Of a stretch of DNA of 64,000 nucleotides, positions 9,581 through 15,991 are shown in pieces (positions within the stretch are counted from its first letter, which is position 1; the number at the start of each line of letters is the position of its first letter). Position numbers and translations under genes: made by a program. This DNA is from Bernardetiaceae bacterium (GTDB taxonomy: Bacteria > Bacteroidota > Bacteroidia > Cytophagales > Thermoflexibacteraceae). Below the pieces are notes generated by a model, which saw nothing but the letters and a program-made list of their open reading frames with translations, was not told where the DNA came from and searched no databases. The stretch spans positions 12,995 through 76,994 of the forward strand of contig JANWWZ010000005.1 in the NCBI GenBank assembly GCA_025057115.1. Direction: 5' to 3'.

Positions 9581-10132
9581 TTAAAATACAGAAATATTTT
9601 CTAGCTCCTGTAGATGAACTTTGAGCAGTTTCATTGGCTTGGCGATGGCAATCCTGCCTGAACGGACAAAACTAAGTACGCCGTAAGGTTTAAGTTCATT
9701 GAAGAGCTTGGTAGTCTCTTCCTCATGGCCAGTTTTTTCAATAACAATAAATTCAGGTTCAATGGTAATTACGCGCGCATGATTATCTCGCAAGATTTTT
9801 TCTACCGCTTTACTGCTGGCAAATACCTCTGTAGGGAGCTTGTAAAGTGCTAGCTCTTGGTAAACTACCTGATCATCAGTGTAGTAGAAAGCTTTGAGCA
9901 CTTCTACTTGCTTTTCGATTTGCCGAACAATAACGCCGATGCGGTCAGGGGTGGTGCGGATAACCACAGTAAAACGACTAATGCCTCTATTTTCTGTTTC
10001 CGAAACAGTAAGGCTATCGATATTAATTTTGCGACGCGTAAAAATAGCCGTAATGCGGCTTAGCAGACCTACTTTGTCTTCGGTAAAGATGGAGATGGTG
10101 TAGCGTTGCTGGTTTCCTTCTAATGGTTGCAT
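9581..10132 (-). CDS. ilvN: Acetolactate synthase, small regulatory subunit
   Basis: The 183-residue regulatory subunit binds the catalytic IlvB subunit, raises its activity and normally confers valine feedback. The N-terminal ACT domain (about residues 10-84) reads YTISIFTEDKVGLLSRITAIF and NIDSLTVSETENRGISRF, both typical; a second alpha/beta domain follows. It is the last gene of the ilvE-ilvD-ilvB-ilvN run and starts 43 bases after ilvB. ATG at 10132. Nothing is missing relative to the family's usual 160-180 residues. Confidence 0.95.
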   Translation of the reverse strand: MQPLEGNQQRYTISIFTEDKVGLLSRITAIFTRRKINIDSLTVSETENRGISRFTVVIRTTPDRIGVIVRQIEKQVEVLKAFYYTDDQVVYQELALYKLPTEVFASSKAVEKILRDNHARVITIEPEFIVIEKTGHEEETTKLFNELKPYGVLSFVRSGRIAIAKPMKLLKVHLQELENISVF

Positions 10133-10175: not shown

Positions 10176-11948
10176 TTATTCTAAGCGAATATCAGCGATA
10201 CAGGTTCCCGCAGGCACCATAGGGAAAACATTGTCTTCCTTTTCTACCATTACTTCCAAGAAATAAGCACTGTGGCTGTTGAGTAGCTCATCTAATGCTT
10301 GGCTAAGTTGCTCGCGCTTCTCCACCCGACGGGCAGGAATGCCAAAGGCTTCAGCAATTTTTACAAAATCAGGATTTTGGATATCCACGTTAGAGTAACG
10401 CCGATCAAAGAAAAGTTGTTGCCATTGGCGTACCATGCCTAAATAATTGTTGTTCATTACAATAATTTTAACCGGGATATGGTACTGCATAATAACACCC
10501 AGTTCTTGCATAGTCATTTGGAAGCCGCCGTCGCCAATAATGGCAATTACTTCTCGGTCAGGGCGTCCAATTTTTGCACCAATGGAGGCAGGCAAACAAA
10601 AGCCCATTGTGCCCAGCCCTCCTGAGGTAACATTGCTATAAGGTTCGTCAAACTCGTAATAGCGCGTTGCCATCATTTGATGCTGCCCTACGTCGGTGGC
10701 GATAATAGCTTTGCCTTTTGTCTTTTGCGAGAGCAAGTGCACTACCTCTGCCATCTTCGGCAAAGGCGTATTAGGGGCAAAGTCCTTTGAAATGACTTTT
10801 TCGTATTCGATGGCGTTATATTCTCTAAAGCGCGCCATCCATTCTGGATATCGCTTGACTTCTAACAAGGGTAAAAGGGCTTGCAAGGCTTCCTTTGCAT
10901 CGGCAATAATAGCTACCTCTGTTTTAACATTTTTGTCAATTTCAGCAGGATCTATGTCGATATGAATGACTTTTGCTTGTTTGGCATAGCAATCCAGCCT
11001 ACCAGTTACCCGGTCATCGAAGCGCATGCCTACCGCAAAAAGCACGTCGCATTGATTAGTAAGCACATTAGGACCATAGTTGCCATGCATGCCTAAATAG
11101 CCCACGTACTGAGGATGATGCACGCTCATGGCGGAGAGCCCCAGCAAAGTACTCGCTACGGGAATGCCTGCTTTTTCGGCTACTTCTTGCACTTCTGCTT
11201 GCGCACCTGAAAGAACAACGCCTTGCCCGATGAGCATAAAAGGTCGCTGCGCATTATTGAGCAACTCAGCTGCGCGCTGGATGGCGTTCATATCCACCTT
11301 GCGCTTGGGAAAGTAGCTGCGAATTTTAAGGCATTTGCGATATTGGAAATCGAAAATTTCAGTCTGGGCATTTTTGGTAATATCTATCAACACAGGTCCA
11401 GGGCGACCACTTTGAGCAATGTAAAAGGCTTTAGCAATTGCTTCGGGAATTTCCTCGGCACGGGTTACTTGATAGTTCCACTTGGTAATGGGCATAGAAA
11501 TGCCGATAACATCAGTTTCTTGAAAAGCATCCGTGCCTAGCAAGTGCTTTCCTACTTGCCCTGTAATACAAACGATAGGAGTAGAATCGATCATGGCATC
11601 GGCAATGCCAGTGATGAGATTAGTAGCTCCTGGTCCTGAAGTAGCCATGCATACTCCTGCACGTCGCTTGACGCGGGCGTACCCTTGGGCAGCATGGGCA
11701 GCTCCTTGCTCGTGGCGGACTAGGTAATGCGTCAAGCGGTCGCGATAGTCATACAGGGCATCGTAAACTGGCATAATAGCCCCTCCTGGATAACCAAATA
11801 CGCATTCGACTCCTTCTGCCAGCAGCGAAAGCACCACTGCCTCTGCGCCAGAAATACCTTTTTTCTCTATAATGGGCGGACCCATCTGGTTTTGCGAATG
11901 AATAGCCGTATTCAACTCGGCTTCATCTAATTGAACAAGTGTGCGCAT
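10176..11948 (-). CDS. ilvB: Acetolactate synthase, large catalytic subunit
   Basis: Thiamine diphosphate- and FAD-dependent enzyme that condenses two pyruvates to acetolactate (valine and leucine route) or pyruvate with 2-oxobutyrate (isoleucine route). The 590-residue protein shows the catalytic Glu in RHEQGAAHAAQGYAR (Glu at about 80), the TPP-binding GDGGFQMTMQELG with NNNYLGMVRQWQ, and the GVCMATSGPGATN segment. The ATG at 11948 is preferred over a TTG five codons upstream. It follows ilvD by 63 bases, and that spacer carries a palindrome shared with the leuC upstream region, so it may have its own control point within the operon. Confidence 0.96.
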   Translation of the reverse strand: MRTLVQLDEAELNTAIHSQNQMGPPIIEKKGISGAEAVVLSLLAEGVECVFGYPGGAIMPVYDALYDYRDRLTHYLVRHEQGAAHAAQGYARVKRRAGVCMATSGPGATNLITGIADAMIDSTPIVCITGQVGKHLLGTDAFQETDVIGISMPITKWNYQVTRAEEIPEAIAKAFYIAQSGRPGPVLIDITKNAQTEIFDFQYRKCLKIRSYFPKRKVDMNAIQRAAELLNNAQRPFMLIGQGVVLSGAQAEVQEVAEKAGIPVASTLLGLSAMSVHHPQYVGYLGMHGNYGPNVLTNQCDVLFAVGMRFDDRVTGRLDCYAKQAKVIHIDIDPAEIDKNVKTEVAIIADAKEALQALLPLLEVKRYPEWMARFREYNAIEYEKVISKDFAPNTPLPKMAEVVHLLSQKTKGKAIIATDVGQHQMMATRYYEFDEPYSNVTSGGLGTMGFCLPASIGAKIGRPDREVIAIIGDGGFQMTMQELGVIMQYHIPVKIIVMNNNYLGMVRQWQQLFFDRRYSNVDIQNPDFVKIAEAFGIPARRVEKREQLSQALDELLNSHSAYFLEVMVEKEDNVFPMVPAGTCIADIRLE

Positions 11949-11965
11949 ACAAATTGCTGCCAAAT

Positions 11966-12011: not shown

Positions 12012-13703
12012 CTATGCATCAGTAACGCATCCTTCTGAAGCAGAGCTAACGCTTTTAATGTATTTCCACAACACTCCACTAGTTACCTTATAAGGAGGCA
12101 TTTGCCATGCTTTGCGGCGCTCTTCTAGCTCTTGAGGGCTTACTAGTAGCTCAATACGGCGGCTAGTAGCATCGATGAGGATGCGGTCGCCATTTTGCAC
12201 CAAAGCAATGGGTCCTCCTACTTGTGCCTCTGGGCTGATGTGTCCTACCACAAATCCGTGAGTGCCACCAGAGAATCTTCCATCAGTAATAAGGGCTACT
12301 TTGTCTCCTAGTCCTGCTCCCATGATAGCAGAAGTAGGCTTGAGCATTTCGGGCATTCCAGGAGCTCCTTTGGGACCGCAGTAGCGAATCACCACTACTT
12401 CACCAGGTTGAATTTCACCCTTGGCAATGCCTTCGTTGAGATCGCGCTCAGAGTCGTATACTCGAGCAGGACCTTCAAAGCGCTCTCCTTCTTTTCCTGT
12501 AATTTTGGCTACCGCCCCTTGAGGAGCGAGATTGCCATAAAGGATTTGAATATGCCCTGTAGGTTTGATAGGGTGGCTCAAAGGGCGAATAATTTCCTGT
12601 TCGGGAGGCAACCCAGAAGAGACCTCGAGGTTTTCCTTCACGGTCTTACCGGTGATAGTCAAGCAATCTCCATGAATAAGCCCTTCTTGATATAACAATT
12701 TCATCACTGCTTGAACGCCCCCGATGTTGCACAAATCTTCCATGAAGTACTTGCCGCTGGGCTTGAGGTCGGCAATATAAGGAGTGCGGTTGCTGATGCG
12801 CTGAAAATCATCAAGGGTGAGTTTGATGCCTACAGCTTTTGCCATTGCGATTAAATGAAGAACTGCATTGGTGGAGCCGCCCAGAGCCATGACCATCGTA
12901 ATGGCATTTTCAAAGGCTTCGAAGGTCATAATGTCACGCGGTTTGAGGTCTAGCTCCAAAGCGCGCAACATCACTTGCCCTACTTGATCGCACTCAGCTT
13001 GCTTCATAGGGCTTGCTGCTGGGAACGAACTGCTATTGGGCAAGCTCATGCCTAACGCTTCGATAGCAGTAGCCATTGTATTGGCTGTGTACATTCCCCC
13101 GCAAGCTCCTGCCCCAGGTATAGCATTGCGAATAACGCCTTGGTATTCCTCTTCGGTAATAGTGCCAGCTACTTTTTTTCCATAAGCTTCAAATACCGAA
13201 ATAATGTCAAGTTTTTTGCCTTTGTATTGACCGTAGTCATAACGACCCGAATTGATAGTGCCGCCATAAATGACAATAGCAGGTCGGTTGAGCCTGCCGA
13301 TAGCCATCATGGCACCAGGCATGTTTTTATCACAGCCTACGAGGGCTATAATGCCATCGTAACACTGAGCCGCTACGATGGTTTCTATAGAGTCGGCAAT
13401 GACATCGCGGCTAGGTAAGGAGTAGCGCATCCATTCTGTGCCGTTGGTCATGCCATCCGATACGCCGATGGTGTTGAAAGTTAGCCCGATGAGGCGGTCG
13501 GTAGCATTGAGGCTCGCCTTGACCCGCCCAGCAAGAGCATTGAGATGCATGTTGCACGTATTGCCATCATAACCAGTGCTAGCAATGCCGATTTGGGCTT
13601 TGTTCATGTCTTGGTCGCGCAAGCCAATGCCGTATAGCATAGCTTTAGCAGCAGGCAAGCTATCGTCTTGGGTATAAGTGCGGCTGTACTTGTTCAATTC
13701 CAT
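12012..13703 (-). CDS. ilvD: Dihydroxy-acid dehydratase
   Basis: Iron-sulfur enzyme that dehydrates 2,3-dihydroxy-isovalerate and -methylvalerate to the 2-keto acids, the third step of Val/Ile synthesis. The 563-residue protein has the three conserved cysteines at about 50 (TCNMH), 124 (GCDKNMPG) and 201 ([12 protein letters not shown]), and the C-terminal [10 protein letters not shown]. The ATG at 13703 lies two bases after the ilvE stop (TGA-GT-ATG), so a start two codons upstream at a TTG is unnecessary. ilvC (ketol-acid reductoisomerase) is not in the window and must be encoded elsewhere. Confidence 0.96.
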
Positions 13704-13705
13704 AC

Positions 13706-14599
13706 TCAAATGATAGTGTAAGCAGGTTCGTGAACAGAGTGCACTAGTTCGTCATAGGCTTCAGCAATGCGAGCACATTGAGATTTGGCGTATGGCAATT
13801 TAAGTGGTTGCTCGTTAATAGTAGCAATGCCAGCAATTTCTGTAGCCGTTCCAGTAAACATGGCGGCATCGGCTTGTAGAAGTTCTTCTACGGTGATAGT
13901 TCTTTCGCGGACTTCTATTTTCAACTGTCGGGCAAGCTCTATTACTGTGGCGCGGGTAATGCCGGGCATGATATAACCTAAAGGTGGTGTAAGGAGCATG
14001 CCTTCTTTTTCGATAAAAATATTAGCTCCAGGAGCTTGGGCAACATATCCATTTTCGTCCAGCATAATAGCTTCATCAAAGCCGTGCTTTTTGGCGTGGG
14101 TGCTCGCCATGATGTTGGGCACGTATGCTCCGCTAATTTTGCCCATCACTGGCATGGCTTTGGGGCTAATGCGCGCATAAGAGCTAATGCACACCTTAAG
14201 TAGTTTATCTCCTAAGTAGCGCGGCCATTTCCATGCTGCCATAAATAATTTTGCAGTGTTGTTGCCCGTGATCAAAGCCATGTGATCCCCAGCAACTAGG
14301 AGGGGGCGGATATAGGCATTTTTGAGCTTATTGTACTCTAGCAATTGATAGGCGATCAACTCTAGTTCTTCCAAAGAGTAGTCAAAATTCATTTGCAATG
14401 CTTCGGCGGTTGCTTTCATGCGCGCAAAATGCTCCTTAGGCTTAAAAATGCGCACACCGTGTTGGGTGTGGTAGGCTTTGAGTCCTTCAAAAACGCCTAA
14501 TCCATAGTGCAGTGTTTGGGCAAAAGGACTGATGGCAATGTCTTTGGCTCTTAAAAAGGCTCCATCGAAAAAAGCTACACTCTTATCGCTGTAATACAT
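13706..14599 (-). CDS. ilvE: Branched-chain amino acid aminotransferase
   Basis: PLP-dependent fold-type IV aminotransferase that makes Val, Leu and Ile from their keto acids with glutamate. The 297-residue protein has [13 protein letters not shown] near the N-terminus, the PLP lysine at about 154 ([12 protein letters not shown]) and [12 protein letters not shown] with APGANIFI. The ATG at 14599 is chosen; a longer TTG start at 14629 would begin inside the terminator region of the attenuator. It is the first gene after that attenuator and leads the ilvE-D-B-N transcription unit. Confidence 0.95.
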
Positions 14600-14627
14600 A
14601 AGTTTGTAAAGATTAACCCCATAAATC

Positions 14628-14664
14628 AAAAAAGCCTTTTCATCTTGCTCGGATGAAAAGGCTT
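14628..14664 (-). terminator. Attenuator terminator (regions 3:4) before ilvE
   Basis: On the minus strand AAGCCTTTTCATC (14664-14652) pairs perfectly with GATGAAAAGGCTT (14644-14632) around the 7-base loop CGAGCAA, followed by a run of six Ts. It stands 28 bases before the ilvE ATG, so when it forms it would end transcription before the operon. Confidence 0.9.
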
Positions 14665-14700
14665 CTTGTCATACGTGCAGTCAAGCGCTTCTCATCCGAG
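14648..14700 (-). promoter_or_regulatory. Antiterminator pairing (regions 2:3)
   Basis: CTCGGATGAGAAG (14700-14688, minus strand) can pair over 13 positions with CTTTTCATCCGAG (14660-14648), with one G-U pair. This competes directly with the terminator, because region 3 is its 5' arm. An extra CTTG/CAAG helix can form inside. Confidence 0.8.
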
Positions 14701-14724
14701 AGGCGTGAGAAGAATGACTAGCAC
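14675..14724 (-). promoter_or_regulatory. Pause/protector hairpin (regions 1:2) over the leader codons
   Basis: On the minus strand GTGC, AGTCA and CTTCTCA (within 14724-14706) pair with TGAGAAG, TGACT and GCAC (within 14694-14675), about 16 bp with a small bulge and an internal loop. Region 1 covers leader codons 2 to 8. A ribosome stalled there would free region 2 for the antiterminator. Confidence 0.75.
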
Positions 14725-14727
14725 CAT
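14692..14727 (-). CDS. Branched-chain amino acid leader peptide
   Basis: An 11-residue open frame, MVLVILLTPLG then TGA, lies in the ilvE leader. Six of the residues 2-7 (Val, Leu, Val, Ile, Leu, Leu) are branched-chain amino acids, with another Leu at 10. Position and composition match the leader peptides of classical ilv attenuators (for example ilvGMEDA in enterobacteria), where ribosome stalling at scarce Val, Leu or Ile codons prevents termination. Codons 2-8 form the 5' arm of the 1:2 hairpin and the stop codon sits at the edge of region 2, as the model requires. No long homologous peptide is expected; translation is inferred. Confidence 0.8.
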   Translation of the reverse strand: MVLVILLTPLG

Positions 14728-14767
14728 AATGACATTTCTGAAAAACATCCTGCCTTGTAATTTGCTT

Positions 14768-14799
14768 CAATTTTAGGCATTACTATTGAAAAATCCAAA
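14768..14799 (-). promoter_or_regulatory. Candidate promoter of the ilvE leader
   Basis: Minus strand TTTG (14799-14796), 20-base spacer, TAAAATTG (14775-14768). This is one base off the Bacteroidota consensus TTTG-N17-23-TAnnTTTG and would start the leader transcript about 35 bases before the leader ATG. It lies in the leuA-ilvE gap, so ilvEDBN can be an independent unit. Confidence 0.5.
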
Positions 14800-14827
14800 T
14801 GCTTGGCGCTACTTTTTTGCAAAAAAA

Positions 14828-15991
14828 TTAAACTTCTGCCTTGAGCTTCATTTTTTCCATTAGCTGGCATAGTTGGTCGTCATCAACGTTCTTGCATTGG
14901 TCAGCGATGATGAGGAATTGCTCATAAGCTATATCCAATTCTTCGCGAGTGAGTTTAAAGCCCAACTTTTCCAAGCGGAAATTCAAGGCGGCTCGTCCAC
15001 TGCGCGCTGTTAGCACGATTTTGCTGCCTTCGGCACCCACATCAGTAGGGTTGATGATTTCGTAGTTTTCGCGGTGTTTAAGGACTCCATCTTGGTGAAT
15101 GCCAGAAGAGTGAGCAAAGGCATTAGCTCCTACAATGGCTTTGTTAGGCTGTACGGGCATGCGCATGAGCCGCGATACTAGTTTGCTCACCGGACATAAC
15201 TGTTGAGTTTTAATATTGGTTTCTAAACCCAAATACGCATGCGTTTTGAGAATCATCACAATTTCCTCTAACGAGGTATTGCCTGCCCTTTCACCGATGC
15301 CATTAATAGTGCATTCTACTTGACGAGCACCGTTAATGAGCCCGTACAGGGAGTTAGCCGTTGCCAATCCCAGATCGTTGTGGCAATGCACTGAAATAGT
15401 GACCCTATCAATGCCTTTTACGTTTTCAACTAGGTACTTAATTTTTTGACCATATTCATGAGGCAGGCAGTAACCTGTTGTATCGGGAACGTTAATGACG
15501 GTAGCTCCAGCAGCAATTACTAACTCTACCATTTTGGCTAAATAGACAGGGTCAGCCCTTCCGGCGTCTTCGGCAAAAAATTCTACATCCTCTACAAGCG
15601 ATTTGGCGTATTTAACCGCTCTTACTGCTCGCTCCAACATTTCTTCGCGATTAGAGCGAAATTTGTGCTGGATGTGAAAATCTGAAGCCCCTAGCCCTGT
15701 GTGAATGCGCTTGCGCTTGGCGTACTGCAATGCATCAGCAGCAGCTTTGATGTCTTTTTCTACTGCTCGGCTCAAACCACACACAATAGCTTCTTTGACA
15801 ACTTTAGAAATTTCCTGTACGGAACGAAAATCTTCAGGACTGGAAATAGGAAATCCTGCCTCAATGACATCCACGCCCAGCGCTTCTAACTCGCGGGCAA
15901 GCATAATTTTTTCCTGTGTGTTGAGCTGACACCCCGGCACTTGCTCACCATCGCGCAAGGTGGTGTCAAATACATAGACTCGATTGTTCAT
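14828..15991 (-). CDS. leuA: 2-Isopropylmalate synthase, short form
   Basis: First committed step of leucine synthesis: acetyl-CoA plus 2-ketoisovalerate gives 2-isopropylmalate. The 387-residue protein has the HMGL-like barrel with [14 protein letters not shown] (Asp9, Arg13), the metal-binding [15 protein letters not shown] and the [14 protein letters not shown] segment, followed by the linker helix region with HSSGIHQDG. It ends near residue 387, whereas the E. coli enzyme has about 523 residues; the C-terminal leucine-binding regulatory domain is absent. Homocitrate synthase is an alternative family member but is ruled out by the leuCDB neighbours. It starts 45 bases after leuB. Confidence 0.93.

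Follow-up and report, generated by a model that had tools for sequence, protein, structure and literature searches.

A probable ribosome-mediated transcription attenuator ahead of ilvEDBN in a Bernardetiaceae bacterium, with counterparts in other Bacteroidia

Leader-peptide attenuation is the textbook mode of control for the ilv operons of enterobacteria. The gap between leuA and ilvE in the genome of a Bernardetiaceae bacterium raises the question whether such control also acts on branched-chain amino acid (BCAA) synthesis genes in this lineage of Bacteroidota. The window analyzed here is a stretch of 64,000 nucleotides (contig JANWWZ010000005.1); positions are counted from its first letter and all features described lie on its minus strand. 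An initial annotation of the window had proposed an ilv attenuator composed of a leader peptide and the alternative pairings 1:2, 2:3 and 3:4. Direct reading and folding recovered all of these elements where they had been placed.

The leu-ilv cluster and its leader region

Assignment with NCBIfam profiles gave the cluster order leuC-leuD-leuB-leuA, attenuator, ilvE-ilvD-ilvB-ilvN. The leuA stop codon lies at 14828 and the ilvE start codon (ATG) at 14599, leaving a gap of ca. 228 nt between genes of the same strand. The first gene of the putatively controlled unit, ilvE (13706..14599, TIGR01122), is followed by ilvD (12012..13703, TIGR00110), ilvB (10176..11963, TIGR00118) and ilvN (9581..10132, TIGR00119 and NF008864), all scoring above the profile cut-offs. 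The ATG of ilvD at about 13703 matches the MELNK start of its congeners, and the start of ilvB is uncertain, its longest frame opening with TTG. LeuA scores above the cut-off of NF002086 and below that of TIGR00973, and ilvC is found on a separate contig, outside the contig of the leu-ilv cluster. That the genes downstream of the leader serve BCAA synthesis supports a reading as ribosome-mediated attenuation.

The promoter-like element that had been noted ahead of the leader (14768..14799) is indeed present, and consists of TTTG (14799-14796), a 20-nt spacer and TAAAATTG (14775-14768). It fits the Bacteroidota promoter consensus (TTTG/TAnnTTTG), with a -7 element that is one position off consensus in the source species, and is a putative promoter. 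In the genus alignment all three congeners keep the element, carrying TAAATTTG, TAATTTTG or TAGTTTTG at the place of TAAAATTG.

The leader ORF (14692..14748) runs from an ATG at 14748 to a TGA ending at 14692, and encodes the 18-residue peptide MFFRNVIMVLVILLTPLG, in which Ile, Leu and Val account for 9 of the 16 final residues. The shorter frame MVLVILLTPLG (14727-14692) of the initial annotation exists, but is the 3' part of this longer in-frame ORF; the start is most likely the ATG at 14748 (18 amino acids) rather than the one at 14727 (11 amino acids). The control codons GTG CTA GTC ATT CTT CTC occupy 14724-14707, and the stop codon sits inside segment 2. The leaders of the three congeners read MLFNIVVLVIILLPIVG, MLFNIAVLVITLLPIVG and MLLYAFIIVLVIILTPLVG. 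We infer translation from the ATG at 14748 because the gaps within the frame in the genus alignment, of 6 and 3 nt, preserve the reading frame and because the changes in the V-L-V-I core are synonymous.

The protector hairpin 1:2 (14664..14731), which is the default pairing without a stalled ribosome, appears in both the minimum free energy and the centroid fold, and on its own has a predicted energy of -22.4 kcal/mol. Segment 2 (CTCGGATGAGAAG, 14688..14700) is complementary over 13 bp to segment 3 (CTTTTCATCCGAG, 14648..14660), which can pair either with segment 2 as antiterminator or with segment 4 as terminator; all 13 pairs of the proposed antiterminator are present, one of them being G-U. 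The 3:4 intrinsic terminator (14628..14664, predicted -17.0 kcal/mol) has a perfect 13-bp stem, a 7-nt loop and a T-run at 14633-14628, the stem-loop at 14664-14632 reading AAGCCTTTTCATC, loop CGAGCAA, GATGAAAAGGCTT. Both the stem and the six Us described earlier are thus found, with two of the six Ts falling within the stem. Helix 2:3 is mutually exclusive with both 1:2 and 3:4.

In the proposed mechanism, RNA polymerase would start at the promoter within the leuA-ilvE gap and a ribosome would translate the leader peptide. With charged Val, Leu or Ile tRNA in short supply, the ribosome would wait at the V-L-V-I-L codons and cover strand 1, upon which strand 2 would pair with strand 3 and transcription would continue into ilvE. 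With plentiful amino acids it would proceed to the stop codon inside strand 2 and cover this strand, so that 3 would pair with 4 and transcription would terminate near 14628. If the leader is not translated, 1:2 would form and termination would be the default outcome. The transcription start, the starvation response, its specificity and which of Val, Leu and Ile act as signals are what we infer from the sequence.

The leading edge of a ribosome is assumed to be 15 nt downstream of the first nucleotide in the P site. A footprint model with this edge, in which pairing is predicted before segment 4 is made, leaves segment 2 free wholly or bar one nucleotide when codons 9-13 (V, L, V, I, L) are in the A site. 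For stalls at these codons, segments 2 and 3 pair with a probability of 0.91-0.99, as against 0.00-0.01 from codon 16 on and at the stop codon. Since stalls at codons 2-8 are likewise antiterminating, the BCAA codons are not distinguished by the model on its own; the predicted spacing fits the mechanism in that a ribosome at V9-L13 would free segment 2, whereas at the stop codon it would cover it.

Conservation in congeners and tests against chance

The check proposed beforehand, namely whether relatives retain the helices and a BCAA-rich frame, was borne out in the congeners: the promoter-like element, the leader, 2:3 and 3:4 are kept in all three. The 1:2 hairpin over the control codons is well formed in the window but only partly conserved in one congener (L005), in which its lower half is lost or weakened, and the other two (L003 and L004) have a single A-C mismatch in 2:3. 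The genus alignment contains one compensatory change in each of 2:3 and 3:4, few events as only four sequences are compared. In 3:4 both partners of a U-A pair have changed to give C-G, and one species shows the U-G intermediate. The outer pair of 2:3 has likewise changed at both positions, from C-G to G-C; because the 3' partner of this pair belongs to the terminator loop and is unpaired in 3:4, this double change speaks for the 2:3 helix as such.

The predicted fold of the 202-nt leader has an energy of -57.1 kcal/mol as compared to a mean of -42.6 kcal/mol for shuffled sequences (z -3.84), and none of the 200 shuffles was as low. When the upstream region was dinucleotide-shuffled 20,000 times, no shuffle reached the 2:3 helix, 10 had an ORF with at least 9 of 16 Ile, Leu or Val residues ending at segment 2, and none combined the two.

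These data bear on the possibility that the hairpin is a mere end-of-operon terminator of leuCDBA, with ilvE being independent and the leader frame accidental. The end of leuA, on the same strand and some 228 nt before ilvE begins, would suit such a terminator. Against it, the genus retains a promoter-like element in the stretch from leuA to the leader, the BCAA frame is kept with indels that leave it in frame, and the terminator loop base co-varies with the leader-coding strand 2. Moreover, numerous loci in other genera likewise have a terminator and a leader ahead of ilvE (see below), and we regard this explanation as improbable. The reading as classical ribosome-mediated attenuation, already put forward in the initial annotation, is supported by the anatomy, the conservation in congeners, the compensatory changes, the geometry and the recurrence in Bacteroidia, and an attenuator of this type very probably controls ilvEDBN.

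Recurrence and tandem arrangement in Bacteroidia

An automatic scan of the 520 nt upstream of ilvE for a terminator and an ORF with at least 7 Ile, Leu or Val residues among the last 16 found at least one such combination in 86 of 116 Bacteroidia loci, of which six are second copies from the same genome; related loci in these counts are not statistically independent. The same scan was positive in 8 of 917 control windows taken from the same loci. When a strict cut-off was set on the helix in an earlier scan, both elements were recovered in only 39 of 99 loci, and many 2:3 helices of other loci are shorter than that of the window. In other classes of the phylum, none of the 12 ilvE loci (L123-L134) had a terminator with a BCAA leader, and in the sample scanned the element seems confined to Bacteroidia. 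Ile and Val dominate the leaders of Flavobacteriales and Val, Leu and Ile are mixed in those of Cytophagales, so that the sensed amino acids may have changed between them.

A swap test covered 109 attenuators from 82 loci. The mean score of segment 2 was 10.9 against its own terminator arm as compared to 7.7 against the arm of another locus, and none of 10,000 permutations reached the observed own-arm fit, a figure that is inflated by relatedness among loci. The 2:3 helix of the window ties for the top score in this set. The test is relevant to the idea that the product of the short ORF is a small membrane peptide with a function of its own, the hairpins being incidental. Its hydrophobic character and its conservation in kind would suit such a function, but the complementarity of strand 2 to the terminator is locus-specific, and what the loci keep is BCAA content and position relative to strand 2, not peptide sequence. 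A membrane peptide is hence very improbable. Least credible is sensing by a T-box (tRNA-binding) or ligand-binding leader RNA, the alternative terminator and antiterminator structures of which would look similar, as no Rfam family, T-box included, reached the gathering score in the window or 13 further loci, no T-box was found among Bacteroidetes/Chlorobi genomes in a published survey (PMC2494555), and the BCAA-rich ORF at the right place would be left unexplained.

For Rfam leader families in particular, no match at the gathering threshold was obtained in the window and 23 further loci; sub-threshold matches to Phe_leader and Thr_leader occurred in distant loci. Within the same genome, the upstream regions of trpE, hisG and thrA lack a visible leader-plus-terminator arrangement, so that, among the amino-acid operons checked, the attenuator is not a general feature. 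No attenuator was found upstream of leuC either; a short frame there, MMILKIVNQIN, has no terminator and was judged a chance occurrence. The region upstream of a trpE-like gene on contig C25 of this genome (L140:1000-1420) holds dense irregular repeats of the TTGTTCGTG/GCGCAACAA type, and no trp leader was seen in it.

At least two attenuator units were detected by the automatic scan in 24 of the 116 loci, with three units in three loci; none of the 917 control windows had two. Three units occur for example in Aequorivita (L090 and L101), and most Tenacibaculum loci have two. L090 contains duplicate-looking copies, MTTNTNIIIISIIIHSTE and MKTNTNIIIISIIIICPPG. BCAA attenuation of ilvE-led operons is likely to be class-wide and probably ancestral in Bacteroidia, with a freely evolving sequence, and to have been multiplied to two or three in series in many Flavobacteriales.

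Series of two or three units, every one of them with a separate ORF and terminator, were seen in L090, L101, L050, L054-L057, L061, L063, L070, L072, L074, L089, L096, L110, L111, L113, L015 and others, mostly in Flavobacteriales. In L009 and L010, a further hairpin resembling a terminator (AAGCCTTT...AAAGGCTTTTTT type) comes after the leader-linked terminator upstream of ilvE, with no BCAA ORF evidently belonging to it. In Salmonella mgtCBR, a different system, attenuators with short ORFs have also been described in tandem (PMC3641672).

Relation to known attenuators

Similar to the ilvGMEDA, ilvBN and leuABCD attenuators of Escherichia coli and Salmonella, the leader of the window is rich in end-product amino acids and has the alternative pairings 2:3 and 3:4, along with a predicted 1:2 hairpin that is only partly kept in one congener; an intrinsic terminator stands ahead of the first gene of the operon. 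Unlike these, it showed no sequence relation to any Rfam leader family, is short (18 amino acids) with a stop codon embedded in strand 2, and is located within a leuCDBA-ilvEDBN cluster behind a Bacteroidota-type promoter-like element. A comparative attenuator study of Vitreschak and others from 2004 is said to mention some cases from Bacteroidetes/Chlorobi.

The authors of a 2010 survey knew of no leader-peptide attenuation outside Proteobacteria and Actinobacteria (PMC2965389). The ilvBNC attenuator of Corynebacterium glutamicum also precedes an ilv operon, in another phylum, and is likened here by position (PMC11857589). Within Bacteroidota, leader-like short ORFs are mentioned in a Bacteroides thetaiotaomicron map (PMC7366714), and the Bacteroid-trp RNA motif (RF01692) is likewise a cis-regulatory RNA ahead of amino-acid genes (PMC2864571), but is trp by name, not ilv, and does not match the window at the gathering score. 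Closest is a transcriptome study of Flavobacterium psychrophilum, which reports strong clues for leader-peptide attenuation upstream of amino-acid operons (PMC9723704). The predicted attenuators share the phylum, the proposed mechanism and the association with amino-acid biosynthesis operons and belong to a different order; the main text names no ilv operon and gives no structure. The initial annotation knew of no described case in this lineage. That holds for ilv attenuators, of which we found none described for Bacteroidota in open papers, but it needs to be tempered by the general F. psychrophilum statement, the only one found.

This kind of attenuation is already known; its class-wide spread and the tandem arrays may be the new parts. 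Transcription control of amino-acid synthesis is little described in Bacteroidota as compared to Proteobacteria and Firmicutes. Relatives of the attenuator are found in the tractable genera Pedobacter, Hymenobacter, Tenacibaculum and Chryseobacterium, which makes it directly testable, and its small conserved form lets the coupling of a leading ribosome to RNA polymerase be tested in Bacteroidota. The tandem arrays offer a way to ask why a cell stacks several BCAA sensors.
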